Source: Saccharopolyspora shandongensis
GTDB lineage: Bacteria; Actinomycetota; Actinomycetes; Mycobacteriales; Pseudonocardiaceae
DNA length: 64,000 nt
Reading direction: 5' to 3'
NCBI RefSeq assembly: GCF_900106995.1
Contig: NZ_FNOK01000002.1
Location: 1 to 64,000 of the forward strand
Shown here: piece by piece, positions 7,371-63,395 of the stretch
How positions within the stretch are numbered: the stretch's first letter is position 1
Layout of the letters: every line of letters starts with the position of its first letter
The notes under the pieces: generated by a model
Told to the model about the DNA's origin: nothing
The model's database searches: none
What the model saw: only the letters and a program-made list of their open reading frames with translations
Made by a program: the position numbers and the translations under genes

Positions 7371-7390
7371 CCATTCGCGCCGGTCAGGGC

Positions 7391-7434
7391 TCGTGAGTGG
7401 TTTGGACTGCTGTAGCGCTCCAAAGCACTCACGA
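7391..7434. terminator. Family-2 hairpin (16-bp arms, CTGCTGTAGCGC centre)
   Basis: Arms TCGTGAGTGGTTTGGA (7391-7406) and TCCAAAGCACTCACGA (7419-7434) pair with one mismatch around a 12-base centre. It lies between convergent genes and shares its design with hairpins at 16873, 27056 and 63396. A GGTCAGG tag stands just to its left. Confidence 0.75.
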
Positions 7435-7454: not shown

Positions 7455-7510
7455 TTGGAGCGAACGGACCGTTTGCGCCGATAGAGCAGGCGAACAGGCC
7501 GTTGACTCGC
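7455..7510. repeat. GAACGGACCGTTC-type repeat, intergenic copy
   Basis: CGAACGGACCGTTTGCG, then CCGATAGAGCAGG, then CGAACAGGCCGTT. The spacer and both arms match the copy inside cydDC (62262-62320) closely. It lies just downstream of the family-2 hairpin between convergent genes. Confidence 0.65.
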
Positions 7511-59505: not shown

Positions 59506-59589
59506 GTCATGCACGAGGCTATAGCTCCCACGAGCGCGAAGGCCGGTCCGGACGACGCAGGTCACAGCCCTTCCGGGACGCGGTTGACG

Positions 59590-59695
59590 AGGTGAACGGA
59601 CCGTTCGTCCCGGTGAGCGAGGTGAACAGGCCGTTCGCTTCGTCCACCCGACGCCGGTGCGCACTACCAGTGCGGAGTGAACGGACTGTTCGCCT
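59590..59695. repeat. Cluster of three GAACGGACCGTTC-type repeats, intergenic
   Basis: GGTGAACGGACCGTTCG (59591), GGTGAACAGGCCGTTCG (59621) and GTGAACGGACTGTTCGCC (59677) occur in the gene-free 59506-59792 region between the histidine kinase gene and the end of cydDC. They match the repeats at 7455 and at 62262-62380. Confidence 0.7.
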
Positions 59696-59792
59696 CACTG
59701 GCTCCGGTCGACAGGTCGCTGCACCGCTTCGAACCCGAACGCGCCCTAGCACGGCCCCACGCCACCACATCTCGAACAGCATCTGCACGCGG

Positions 59793-62700
59793 TCACGGGA
59801 GGGCGCCTTCGCGCTGGGCCTCGCGGACGACCGCGATCTCGCCGGCCTCGACGCGCAGGACGATGTCCGCGTGTTCGGTCTCCGACCAGCGGTGCGTCAC
59901 GTGGATGACGGTGCGGTCGCGCAACGCGTGGCGCAGGCGGGCGAGCAGCGCCTCCGCGGTCGGCACGTCCAGGTGCGCGGTCGGCTCGTCGAGCAGCACC
60001 AGTTCCGCATCCGCCGCCAGCAGGGCTCGGGCCAGTGCGAGGCGCTGGGCCTCGCCGCCCGACATCGCCGTGCCGCCGCTGCCGACCATCGCGTCCAGCC
60101 GCTCCTCCCAGCCCGGCAGCCCCGCCACCCGGAGCGCCTCGCCGAGCTCGCGGTCGTCCGCCTCCGGCGCGGCGAGCCGCAGGTTCTCCCGGATCGTCGT
60201 CGATACCAGCTGCGGCTCCTGCGGGCACCACGCGACCTTCCGCGGCACCCGCACGTCGCCCCGCTCCGCCTCCAGGAATCCCAGCAGCAGCGCCAACATC
60301 GTCGACTTCCCGCCGCCGGAAGGCCCGACCACCGCGACGTGCGCCCCGGCGGGCACCCGCAAGTCCGCGCCCCGCAAGGCCATTCCGCCCGAACCCGGCC
60401 ACCGGACATCGACGCCGGTCAGCTCGACGCCGGCCGTTGCCGCCGGATCAGCTGCGCGGCGCTCCGGATCGGCAGGTTCGCCGCCCGAACCCGACAGCTG
60501 GACATCGACACCGGACGGCGCCACCCGATCAGCAGCGCGACGCCCCGAACCGGCAGGTTCACCACCCGAGCCCTGCCGCTGGACATCACCAACGACCAGC
60601 TCGACACCGGGCCGCGCCGCCTGATCAGCCGAAGCACCAACGGCTCCACCGCCAGAGCCGACCGCCAGCAAGGGCGCCAGACGAGCTTGCGCTGCACGCA
60701 AGGACTTCCACTGCTGCGCAGCGGGCGGCAGCAACGCGACGGCTTCCGCCGCGGCGAGCGGAACCAGCCCGAGCAGCGGAGCCAGCTCCGGCGCCAACCT
60801 TCCTTCGGCGACCGCCGCCGCCCCGAACCACGCTCCGCCGAGCACCGCGATCCCGACGAGGAGCGTGTTCACAGCCGTCGCGGCTCCCGCGCCGAAGGCG
60901 GCGCGACGGGCGCGGGCAGCGAGGCGCTCGTCGGCGGCGGCCAGTTCGGCGCGACGCTCCTCGTGCGCGCCGAAGGCGAGCAGTTCCGCCGAGCCGTCGA
61001 GCAGCGCGAGGACGCGAGCCGCGACGCGACGGCGCCCTTCCGCCACGGCAGCGGTCGCGCGGCGCTCCGCAGCGAGCGCGGCGAGCGGACTCGCGACGAA
61101 GGCGACGAGCAGCGCAGCTGCGAGCACCGCGCCCGCTTCGGGGAGCACCAGCGTTTGGAGCACCACCGCAGCGACCACGACGACCGCCGCGACCAGCGGC
61201 GGGAGGATCACGCGCGGCTCCAGGTCGCGGACGGAGTCGACGTCGTCGACGAGGCGCGCGACGCCCTCGCCGCGGCGGAGCCCGGCGGTGCGCACCGGCC
61301 CGAGTCGCACGAGGGCATCCCACAGCTGCCGCCGGAGGCGGCCGGAGAGCCGGAAGGCGGCGTCATGCGTGACGAGCCGCTCCGCGTAGCGGAGCACCGC
61401 GCGCGACAGCGCGAAGGTGCGCACGCCGACGACAGCGACGGAGAGCGTGAGGATCGGCGGCTGCTGCGAAGCGCGGGCGATCAGCCAGGCCGACGTCGCG
61501 GTCAGCGCGAGGCCGGAGAGCAGCGAGAGCGCGCCGAGGCCGACGCCGAGGAGCGTTCGCGGCGTGATCAGGTCGTGGATGCGACCGGTCGCCGCCGGCA
61601 GGTCGGGCGGGGCGGTCTGAAGGGCTGCGGTGGCCGCTTCGGGTTCGGCTTCGGCCGCCTCCGGGCGGTGGCTGGCGAGCACGACCGTCGCGCCCGCTTC
61701 GGCGGCGCGCCGGACGGCCTCGTTGACCTGGTGTGCCGTCGCGGCGTCCAGGTGCGCGGTCGGCTCGTCGAGCAGCAGGATCTTCGCGTCGCCGCGCAGC
61801 CTCAGCAGGGCGCGGGCCACCGCGACCCGTTGACGTTCCCCTGTGGACAGTTCGTCGATGCGGCGGTCGCGGAGGTGGGCGGCGGCCGCGTCGGCGAGCG
61901 CTTCGCCGATGTGCGCCGTCAAGTCGGGTTGGTCGGCGGTGGCGACCGCGAGCTCGTCGGCGACGGTGCCACCGGTGAACGTCGGGCGCTGCGGCACCCA
62001 CGCGATGCGGCGCCGCCACTCGGCCGGGTCCAGCTCGGCGATGTCCACGCCGTCGCAGGTGATCGTGCCGCTTTCCGGGGCGGCGAAGCCGAGCAGCACC
62101 GACATCGTCGTCGACTTGCCGCTGCCGCTCGGCCCGATGCCGTCGAAGCCCTCCAGCCGCACGATCTCGCCGGGCCGCGCCACGAAGCTCAGGCCGTCCG
62201 GCGCGAACCCGTCCCGCCGCCGCACGCGCAGCCCAGCCACCCGCACCGTCGCAGGCCCGTCGGAGCGAACGGACCGTTCACGCCGATAGACGAGGTCAAC
62301 GGTCCGTTCGCGCGAACCCACCCCACTCGGGGCGAACGGACCGCGCGAGGTGAACGGACCGTTCGCCTCGTCCAGCGATGCGGACGTGGCGTTCGCCTCG
62401 CCGCGCGAAGCGCCGCCGCTCACGATCTCGTCGACCCGGCGGACCGCTTCGACGCCGTCTTCGCTCGCGTGGTGCGCCGCTCCCGCCGCGCGCAGCGGCA
62501 GGTAGCACTCCGGCGCGAGGACCAGCACCAGCAGGCCCGTCGCCAGGTCGAGGTCGCCGGAGACCAGCCGCAGGCCGATGCCGACCGCCACCATCGCCAC
62601 CGACAGCGACGACAGCAGCTCCAGGACCAGCGCGGAGAGGAAGGCGATGCGCAGCGTCGCGATCGTGGTGCGTCGGTGCGAGTCGCTGACGCGGCGGACC

Positions 62701-63362
62701 ACCTCGCCCTGCGCCCGCGCCCGCCCGAACGCCGTCAGCACCGGCAGCGCCCGGATCAGCTCCAGCAGTTGCCCGGACAGGCGCTGCACCGCATCGGCGG
62801 CGCGCGAGGTGCGCTGCTCGGTGTACTTGCCGACGAGCCACGCGAACAGCGGGATCAGCGGCACGGTGATCACGATGACCAGCGCGGAAACCCAGTCGGA
62901 GAACAGGATCCAGGCCCCCACCAACGGCGGCACCACCGCGGCGGTCACCAGCGCGGGCAGGTACTTGGTGAAGTACGCGTCGAGCGCGTCGAGGCCCTTG
63001 GTGGCGAGCGCGGTCAGCTCGGCCGGGCCGCGCCGGTGGATCCACTCCGGGCCCCGCCGCAGCGCGGAATCCAGCAGCAGGCCGCGCAGCTCCTCCTTCG
63101 CGCCCGCCGCCGCCCGGGCCGACACCGACTCGGTCGCCCAGCCCAGCGCGGCCCGCGCCACCACCGCACCGGCCAGCACCACCAGGTAGTCGCCGATCTC
63201 CGCCGGCGAGGCGGCCCTGGTCACGACGGCCGCGAGCGCGCTGCCCAACGCCCAGGCCTGCACGATCAACGCGGCCGCGTTGCCGACGGAGAGCAGCCCG
63301 GCCACGACGAGCGCGCGCCGAGCCGACCCCGAAAGCCGGGGCAGAGCTCCCAGCGGACCCAT
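59793..63362 (-). CDS. cydDC: CydDC: fused thiol/haem ABC exporter for cytochrome bd assembly
   Basis: The 1189-residue protein joins two half transporters. CydD-like part: membrane domain about 1-310, Walker A GPSGSGKST (about 408-416), LSTGERQ and LLLDEPTAHLD. CydC-like part: membrane domain about 600-860, Walker A GPSGGGKST (about 1012-1020), MSGGEAQ and LLDEPTAHLD. It exports reduced thiols needed for cytochrome bd and follows cydB, as expected. Fusion is common in actinobacteria. Two odd inserts occur: residues about 328-367 encoded by a GAACGGACCGTTC repeat cluster, and residues about 905-995 with a duplicated linker. ATG 63362 has AGGAG six bases upstream. Confidence 0.92.
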   Translation of the reverse strand: MGPLGALPRLSGSARRALVVAGLLSVGNAAALIVQAWALGSALAAVVTRAASPAEIGDYLVVLAGAVVARAALGWATESVSARAAAGAKEELRGLLLDSALRRGPEWIHRRGPAELTALATKGLDALDAYFTKYLPALVTAAVVPPLVGAWILFSDWVSALVIVITVPLIPLFAWLVGKYTEQRTSRAADAVQRLSGQLLELIRALPVLTAFGRARAQGEVVRRVSDSHRRTTIATLRIAFLSALVLELLSSLSVAMVAVGIGLRLVSGDLDLATGLLVLVLAPECYLPLRAAGAAHHASEDGVEAVRRVDEIVSGGASRGEANATSASLDEANGPFTSRGPFAPSGVGSRERTVDLVYRRERSVRSDGPATVRVAGLRVRRRDGFAPDGLSFVARPGEIVRLEGFDGIGPSGSGKSTTMSVLLGFAAPESGTITCDGVDIAELDPAEWRRRIAWVPQRPTFTGGTVADELAVATADQPDLTAHIGEALADAAAAHLRDRRIDELSTGERQRVAVARALLRLRGDAKILLLDEPTAHLDAATAHQVNEAVRRAAEAGATVVLASHRPEAAEAEPEAATAALQTAPPDLPAATGRIHDLITPRTLLGVGLGALSLLSGLALTATSAWLIARASQQPPILTLSVAVVGVRTFALSRAVLRYAERLVTHDAAFRLSGRLRRQLWDALVRLGPVRTAGLRRGEGVARLVDDVDSVRDLEPRVILPPLVAAVVVVAAVVLQTLVLPEAGAVLAAALLVAFVASPLAALAAERRATAAVAEGRRRVAARVLALLDGSAELLAFGAHEERRAELAAADERLAARARRAAFGAGAATAVNTLLVGIAVLGGAWFGAAAVAEGRLAPELAPLLGLVPLAAAEAVALLPPAAQQWKSLRAAQARLAPLLAVGSGGGAVGASADQAARPGVELVVGDVQRQGSGGEPAGSGRRAADRVAPSGVDVQLSGSGGEPADPERRAADPAATAGVELTGVDVRWPGSGGMALRGADLRVPAGAHVAVVGPSGGGKSTMLALLLGFLEAERGDVRVPRKVAWCPQEPQLVSTTIRENLRLAAPEADDRELGEALRVAGLPGWEERLDAMVGSGGTAMSGGEAQRLALARALLAADAELVLLDEPTAHLDVPTAEALLARLRHALRDRTVIHVTHRWSETEHADIVLRVEAGEIAVVREAQREGALP
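60385..60640 (-). repeat. Imperfect tandem duplication in the second cydDC linker
   Basis: About 2.7 units of 81-96 bp encode GVELVVGDVQRQGSGGEPAG, GVDVQLSGSGGEPADPERRA and the genuine domain start GVELTGVDVRWPGSGGMALR. RRAAD ends two of the units. The frame is kept throughout, so the linker grew by copying the first strand of the nucleotide-binding domain. Confidence 0.75.
62262..62380 (-). repeat. GAACGGACCGTTC-type repeat cluster inside the cydDC reading frame
   Basis: Four GAACGG(A/T)CCG-type arms with the CCGATAGACGAGG spacer lie within the coding sequence. They encode an in-frame insert of about 40 residues (EANGPFTSRGPFAP, RTVDLVYRRERSVRSDGP) between membrane and nucleotide-binding domains. 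The same DNA is found outside genes at 7455 and 59590. Confidence 0.8.
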
Positions 63363-63395
63363 CAAGAACTCCTAGTCGAATCGCCAGGTCACGGG

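Follow-up and report, generated by a model that had tools for sequence, protein, structure and literature searches.

How does a palindromic repeat that lies between genes come to be read as part of a protein? The question is raised by a 64,000-nucleotide stretch of the Saccharopolyspora shandongensis genome (the window), in which a repeat seen in intergenic spacers also occurs inside an intact gene. The features concerned, in window coordinates, are as follows.

59793..63362, minus strand: cydDC, encoding a fused CydD-CydC ABC exporter, an intact open frame with CydD and CydC profile matches
62262..62399, minus strand: repeat-derived in-frame segment, about residues 323–368, in the CydD linker that joins the membrane domain to the nucleotide-binding domain
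62262..62314 (core 62267–62309), no strand: element copy 1, read in the GAA CGG frame (..ERTVDLVYRRERSVR..)
62334..62346, no strand: half palindrome copy with two mismatches
62347..62399 (core 62352–62394), no strand: element copy 2, with one arm decayed, read in the AAC GGN frame (..NGPF..)
59589..59641, no strand: intergenic element copy just downstream of cydDC (RNA fold −36.8 kcal/mol, z −5.6)
59674..59696, no strand: single palindrome in the same spacer as the preceding copy, 55 bp further on
7457..7509, no strand: intergenic element copy between convergent genes

A repeat in frame within cydDC

The cydDC frame runs from a first ATG at 63362–63360, immediately preceded by an in-frame TTG codon at 63365, to a stop at 59793, and its product scores above the curated NCBIfam cut-offs for both CydD (729.6 bits, cut-off 435) and CydC (584 bits, cut-off 329.05). 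Exact matches to GAACGGACCGTTC occur in the window at 59594, 62267 and 62352, the last two within this one open frame, which bears out the sequence-only reading of a repeat that lies inside cydDC without breaking it. That reading had placed the repeat at 62262–62380; the start holds, while the end is best given as 62399. It had also proposed that about 40 residues were added between the first membrane domain and its nucleotide-binding domain. This agrees with the position of residues 323–368 in the CydD linker and with a linker length of 65 residues, versus 24–29 in the 15 Saccharopolyspora proteins that lack the insert. The further copies that it described at 7455–7510 and 59590–59695 are present, and are intergenic according to our home-made gene caller.

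Within the insert, palindromes are paired at 62267/62297 and 62352/62382, the last arm having three mismatches. Copies 1 and 2 lie 85 bp apart; as this is not a multiple of three, they are read in the first and the second frame, respectively. One 37-bp spacing, likewise not a multiple of three, is found in each of four cydDC arrays (window genome, S. elongata, G007 and S. spinosa), so that the frame switches within the insert. The cydDC frame is open in all six genomes that carry the insert, though the number of units varies. As RNA, copy 1 folds at −34.5 kcal/mol (z −6.2), and copy 2 folds with a z-score of −3.2, 2 of 200 shuffles being equally good.

In an AlphaFold2 model built from 16 sequences (mean pLDDT 74.5), residues 318–368 fall below 50; the preceding helix ends at 316, and the nucleotide-binding domain has its first strand from 374 on. 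These low values are consistent with an exposed, disordered linker, or may be explained by the thin data of 16 sequences.

Elsewhere in the same protein, the CydC linker (window 60385–60629) contains degenerate tandem repeats of unrelated sequence, with spacings of 96 and 81 bp, which look like duplications of the beginning of the nucleotide-binding domain; this stretch is also of low model confidence (904–977). In S. elongata the cydDC open frame has 1149 codons, 41 fewer than the 1190 of the window genome.

A dispersed family of paired palindromes

The element is a hairpin unit of ~53 bp made of two GAACGGnCCGTTC palindromes 30 bp apart. Its 43-bp core has the layout GAACGGnCCGTTC, 17 bases, GAACGGnCCGTTC, and beyond this core pairing fades about 5–6 bp out, giving the ~53-bp unit. 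With up to two mismatches, GAACGGACCGTTC gave 16 strand-hits in the window versus 2.7 expected and a maximum of 9 in 100 shuffles. Across the 10.15-Mb window genome, the 30-bp pair with up to three mismatches was found 95 times (reversed control 0), and GAACGGWCCGTTC at 44 places (1 for its reversed control). Single palindromes with up to two mismatches numbered 1684 genome-wide versus 1012 in the control and are thus mostly chance, so that it is the pair and not the single palindrome that defines the family. Among neighbouring palindromes (up to one mismatch, 13–130 bp apart, known in-gene arrays excluded), 171 of 250 pairs were spaced by 30 bp. Doublets spaced 85/86 bp also recur, the cydDC pair (85 bp) being one of them.

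RNA fold z-scores for eight strands from seven copies ranged from −3.2 to −7.7. When 221 copies were translated, the three plus-strand frames were stop-free in 195, 216 and 86, with similar figures for the minus strand. Beyond the genus, the strict pair was present in 22 of 200 sampled Pseudonocardiaceae genomes, representing 10 of 46 genera (control 0).

A search of the window and six element loci against Rfam gave no listed match at its family's gathering score; sub-threshold matches to miRNA families and to Atu_L6 were taken as chance hairpin likeness. One scan of viral contigs, as possible carriers, with one strict form of the element gave no exact match; a pattern this strict would miss many variants. 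In the literature, a search that mostly did not extend to subscription papers, so that a prior mention is possible, five variants of the GAACGG core found no match; what that search returned on palindromic repeats in Saccharopolyspora or Actinobacteria held nothing recognised as the GAACGG element.

Distribution of the insert across Saccharopolyspora

We compared 22 Saccharopolyspora genomes, 21 of which encode a full CydDC (G013, without one, was left uncounted). The insert is present in six of the 21 proteins, with linkers of 32–105 residues, and absent in 15, with linkers of 24–29 residues. Outgroup proteins from Kibdelosporangium, Actinosynnema and Rhodococcus rhodnii have linkers of 21–23 residues and no insert. 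Carriage of the insert coincides exactly with an element count of at least five, the other 16 of 22 genomes having 0–3:

Window genome: CydD linker 65 residues; 95 elements
S. elongata: linker 65 residues; 131 elements
G007: linker 72 residues; 106 elements
S. spinosa: linker 105 residues; 177 elements
G015: linker 44 residues; 5 elements
G014: linker 32 residues; 27 elements

The sequence-only reading had named residues shared by all relatives as the finding that would count against it; the 15 insert-free proteins and the outgroups do not have them. By these comparisons, the cydDC insert is derived. The cydDC gene of G014 has one unit. Over 43 bases it shows 3 differences from the window copy and 4 from that of S. 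elongata, versus at least 6 for all other copies in the comparison. That the residues are ancestral CydDC sequence, resembling the intergenic repeats by chance or local slippage, is extremely improbable: nothing found speaks for this reading, and it is contradicted by the insert-free relatives, by the dispersal of the same 43-mer genome-wide (control 0) and by the comparison of the G014 copy.

How the insert reached its present distribution can be stated less firmly. In a CydDC tree built with linkers removed, the other five carriers group with support of 94/90, just short of a starred branch, and G014 falls in another clade (100/100), so that at least two changes are needed. One gain followed by losses, two gains, or exchange are each possible from the sequences; one gain with several losses fits the closeness of the copies and the 0–3 elements kept by non-carriers. 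The G014 linker exceeds those of insert-free species by only 3–8 residues, which implies loss or replacement of some of the original linker. A genome of another genus, G066 (HNM0986), has elements and no cydDC insert.

The comparison also bears on what the added peptide does. dN/dS in the insert was 0.38, 0.52, 0.53 and 1.37 in four species pairs (few codons, 25–65), versus 0.18–0.28 in the rest of CydDC. A peptide recruited for a selected function in CydDC might be expected from its retention in six species and from the expansion of the S. spinosa linker to 105 residues; set against the higher dN/dS of the insert in all four pairs, few codons as they are, the low model confidence of the linker and the 15 other members of the genus that manage without it, such recruitment is very improbable. 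The insert is likely to be tolerated protein sequence, and the encoded peptide is probably a passive, putatively disordered spacer.

Sampled copies lie mostly at gene 3′ ends

We classified 170 element clusters sampled from five Saccharopolyspora genomes, in which orthologous copies are not independent, using a gene caller built in-house from codon usage. Seventy-four clusters lay between convergent genes, 68 between tandem genes and 6 between divergent genes; 7 were inside a called gene, 7 partly inside one and 8 at contig or locus edges. Thus 142 of the 148 intergenic clusters with both neighbours seen were between convergent or same-strand genes, the remaining 6 being divergent, and 57 of the 68 tandem clusters were nearer the upstream stop codon; the sampled copies lie mostly just 3′ of stop codons. 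Within the window genome, 25 of 56 clusters were convergent versus 46 of 228 spacers (Fisher p = 4e-4), and 3 of 56 were divergent versus 57 of 228 spacers (p = 8e-4), the comparison spacers being those of at least 40 bp on contig C58. With 81% of C58 called as coding, copies avoid genes.

The seven "inside" clusters comprise four in cydDC, two in a ligase gene and one (L160) that is a doubtful C-terminal read-on. The caller also wrongly split the window-genome ligase around its array (L047), which was counted as tandem intergenic; because of such caller errors and the doubtful L160, the figures per class are approximate. When 185 clusters were put to a stricter in-frame test, five were listed (cydDC of G000, G007 and G004, and both G014 genes), and the ligase arrays of G000 and S. 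elongata were missed. Some of the clusters inside or partly inside genes are C-terminal fusions that take their stop from the third frame of the element. At L017, L162, L291, L267 and L382 the last codons and the stop come from this frame (e.g. ..RTDRSPR stop), and L017 and its likes L162 and L291 encode a protein with a SWIM zinc finger.

Two further arrangements were seen at element loci. A long array with a 90-bp period in S. spinosa (L245:3799-4471) runs into a stretch of assembly Ns. In the window, a separate hairpin-like repeat, CTCGTGAGTGG...CCAAAGCACTCACGA, lies beside the element at 7389–7434; at the same site S. elongata has a different sequence with palindromes of its own.

A long hairpin or paired binding sites

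Copies in other genera keep the core, as demanded by the search pattern, and the geometry, and differ in their arms. In G172 nearly all copies have the arms GTTAT/ATAAC. In G141 the outer arms are mostly GCTAT/ATAGC or GCCAT/ATGGC and the inner arms CTTGC/GCAAG; outer and inner arms differ and yet pair, so that pairing over the full 53 nt is kept where the half-palindromes are not. These observations bear on whether the GAACGGnCCGTTC palindromes might instead be sites for a DNA-binding protein about three helical turns apart, with the hairpin incidental. The mostly exact 30-bp spacing would suit such sites, as would a 13-mer core that recurs from genus to genus in hairpins that otherwise vary, a core that the search pattern itself required. 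The G141 arms favour a long hairpin, however, and the copies lie at 3′ ends rather than at divergent promoters; we consider paired binding sites unlikely.

We also compared mispairs as a possible trace of RNA function, an excess of G-U over A-C being expected of hairpins that are transcribed. Tandem copies had 47 G-U vs 29 A-C mispairs in the outer stem and 133 vs 111 in the inner, and convergent copies 43 vs 48 and 152 vs 129. On the sense strand of in-gene copies the inner stem had 7 G-U vs 23 A-C, from few independent copies and possibly by chance. Since the bias is weak between tandem genes, evens out between convergent genes and is reversed inside genes, we did not accept it as proof of an RNA role.

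Taken together, the segment at 62262–62399 is very probably a derived, in-frame colonisation of a tolerant CydD linker by a dispersed Pseudonocardiaceae palindromic family. From its location and structure, the normal role of the element would be that of an RNA hairpin at mRNA 3′ ends, a putative terminator or stabiliser that could act in both directions between convergent genes. Such hairpins would spread, or be swapped between sites, and now and then one would land in a flexible protein linker. Copies there would be tolerated because stops are almost always absent from two of the three frames and a period equals exactly ten codons, and later gain or loss of units would be filtered by selection on frame.

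In-frame copies in other genes

The sequence-only reading had suggested looking for further in-frame copies, and such a search turned up a second gene, shared by the six carriers, and a third outside Saccharopolyspora. The second encodes an AMP-binding (acyl-CoA synthetase-like) ligase, with the in-frame repeat just before its TTSGSSGxPK motif. Among the 13 of 22 genomes inspected, in-frame copies were present in the same six as the cydDC insert; the alignment excluded nine genomes in which the motif was unmatched (G018, G005, G002, G016, G017, G006, G003, G011 and G013). The array has ten, six, three and one half-units in the window genome, S. elongata, S. spinosa and G007, respectively; it is a single pair in G014 and degenerate in G015. 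No repeat was seen in the ligase linkers of S. soli, G009 and G021. All 17 spacings within the ligase arrays (9+5+2+1) are multiples of three, including all five that are not 30, versus 16 of 79 non-30 spacings outside genes, a comparison in which the mismatch limits differ (three for the ligase, one outside genes).

The third gene is nuoG of G172 (NCBIfam PRK07860, 896.5 bits, cut-off 802), in which a well-preserved 53-bp copy lies in frame and encodes VMNGPFITDSVMNGPFIT. It occupies a linker; structure chain 8e9g, which we take to be of M. smegmatis type, differs there and is of similar length, and the copy may be an addition or a replacement. It was the one such case among 37 clusters examined in other genera. 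These clusters hold 41 units in all (G141 10, G172 8, G066 16, others 7), four G066 loci having more than one. In cydDC, the ligase and nuoG alike, in-gene copies use the first two frames only.

A second family and turnover between species

In S. kobensis, G001, S. indica and S. hirsuta, the ligase linker instead carries one or two in-frame copies of TTTCGCGCGAAA or a close variant, the two copies in S. kobensis and G001 being 42 bp apart. The TTTCGCGCGAAA family (GCGnTTTCGCGCGAAAnCGC) is itself dispersed, with a 41/42-bp period and 38 copies in 737 kb of the window genome and S. elongata (control 0). Seven other loci of the four species with TTTCGCGCGAAA in the ligase, all around cydDC, partly overlapping and 4.6–10.2 kb each, held no exact TTTCGCGCGAAA copy. 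The letters of TTTCGCGCGAAA also occur in an E2F paper. A further hairpin, AATTTCnnnnGAAATT, had 5 copies in S. elongata (383 kb) and none in the window genome (354 kb); it is possibly a third family.

The window genome and S. elongata align over a 354-kb contig in pieces that are mostly 93–98% identical, and 5 of 10 window-genome clusters have a counterpart at the same place in S. elongata. Downstream of cydDC, the window genome has the GAACGG element and S. elongata six TTTCGCGCGAAA copies. Six non-shared intergenic sites were listed and five aligned. At these five the spacer differs widely, with no precise empty site with target duplication seen; at four of them, judged by eye, the element-free genome has other palindromic sequence. 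The 30-bp GAACGG and 41/42-bp TTTCGCGCGAAA families occupy the same ligase linker in different species groups. We tentatively raise the possibility, itself doubtful, that several unrelated double-palindrome families in Pseudonocardiaceae compete for gene 3′ ends and linkers and replace one another wholesale within a genus, spreading by hairpin-for-hairpin exchange and not by ordinary transposition. If this were true, hairpin exchange would be a steady source of new protein linkers.

Relation to known repeat systems

The sequence-only reading had likened the insert to Rickettsia palindromic elements, a likeness that stands for the way of working and fails for length and tag features. Those elements (RPE-1, RPE-4, RPE-6 and others) are palindromic and lie in frame in existing genes at solvent-exposed sites without destroying them, and different groups can share one gene region, possibly as hotspots (PMC3767692). 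The GAACGG element resembles them in being in frame in unrelated protein genes (cydDC and the AMP-binding ligase, with nuoG elsewhere). Unlike the Rickettsia elements, which are 100–150 bp long (PMC3767692), its unit is ~53 bp with a 30-bp double-palindrome period, and doublets alone reach ~138 bp; most sampled copies lie at gene 3′ ends, with few genes found hit; and its host is a high-GC actinobacterium. RPE-4 and RPE-6 have CGTC at one end (PMC3733652), whereas CGTC near an end was found in 41 of 221 element copies versus 28% of 5000 random places, and the GTAG tag in 2 of 221 versus 7%, so neither is enriched.

REPs of the GTAG and CGTC super-families are palindromic, multi-copy and mainly between convergent or same-strand genes, and those inside genes are often dimers or groups encoding 20–30 residues (PMC3733652). 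The GAACGG element shares the palindromic, multi-copy character, the location and the occurrence of some copies inside genes, and differs in being tagged by neither tetranucleotide and in showing no RAYT link at 15 Y1_Tnp loci examined. The main text of PMC3733652 makes no mention of Saccharopolyspora, actinobacteria, Streptomyces or Frankia.

Its hairpin structure, copy number and 3′ location are nonetheless REP-like, and would suit a miniature transposon of REP type, mobilised by a Y1 (RAYT) transposase of IS200/IS605-like kind; Y1_Tnp (PF01797) was found in five of the six element-rich genomes versus 4 of the 16 others. At the 15 Y1_Tnp loci examined, from 35 matches in 9 of 22 genomes, none had an element inside about 1.5 kb on each side. 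Seven of the ten best Y1_Tnp matches lie in open frames of 134–151 codons, presumably nearer IS200 TnpA than RAYT in size. Moreover, G015 has elements and no Y1_Tnp, G019, G017 and G005 have Y1_Tnp and no element, and the tags are not enriched. Movement by such a transposase is accordingly improbable.

Two further systems deserve comparison. Actinobacterial intrinsic terminators are GC-rich hairpins a few bases after stop codons and between convergent genes; unlike them, the element forms a sequence-related dispersed family with a shared core and has copies inside coding regions. MITEs are small repeats whose in-frame fusions can add residues to host proteins (PMC10969869); unlike these, the element gave no evidence of target duplication at five aligned sites, and no parent IS was identified.

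In-frame palindromic repeats have previously been described for Rickettsia and Wolbachia and for REPs of other bacteria. The same in-frame outcome is now seen in a high-GC, free-living actinobacterial genus, in which repeat DNA seems to have been turned into protein sequence. Across species there are graded stages, from no insert to one unit, two units and many units, and two unrelated families are found in one linker in different species. Automatic gene calls near elements need care, given C-terminal extensions and split genes. How noncoding repeats become protein can thus be put to the test in species amenable to culture and sequencing.
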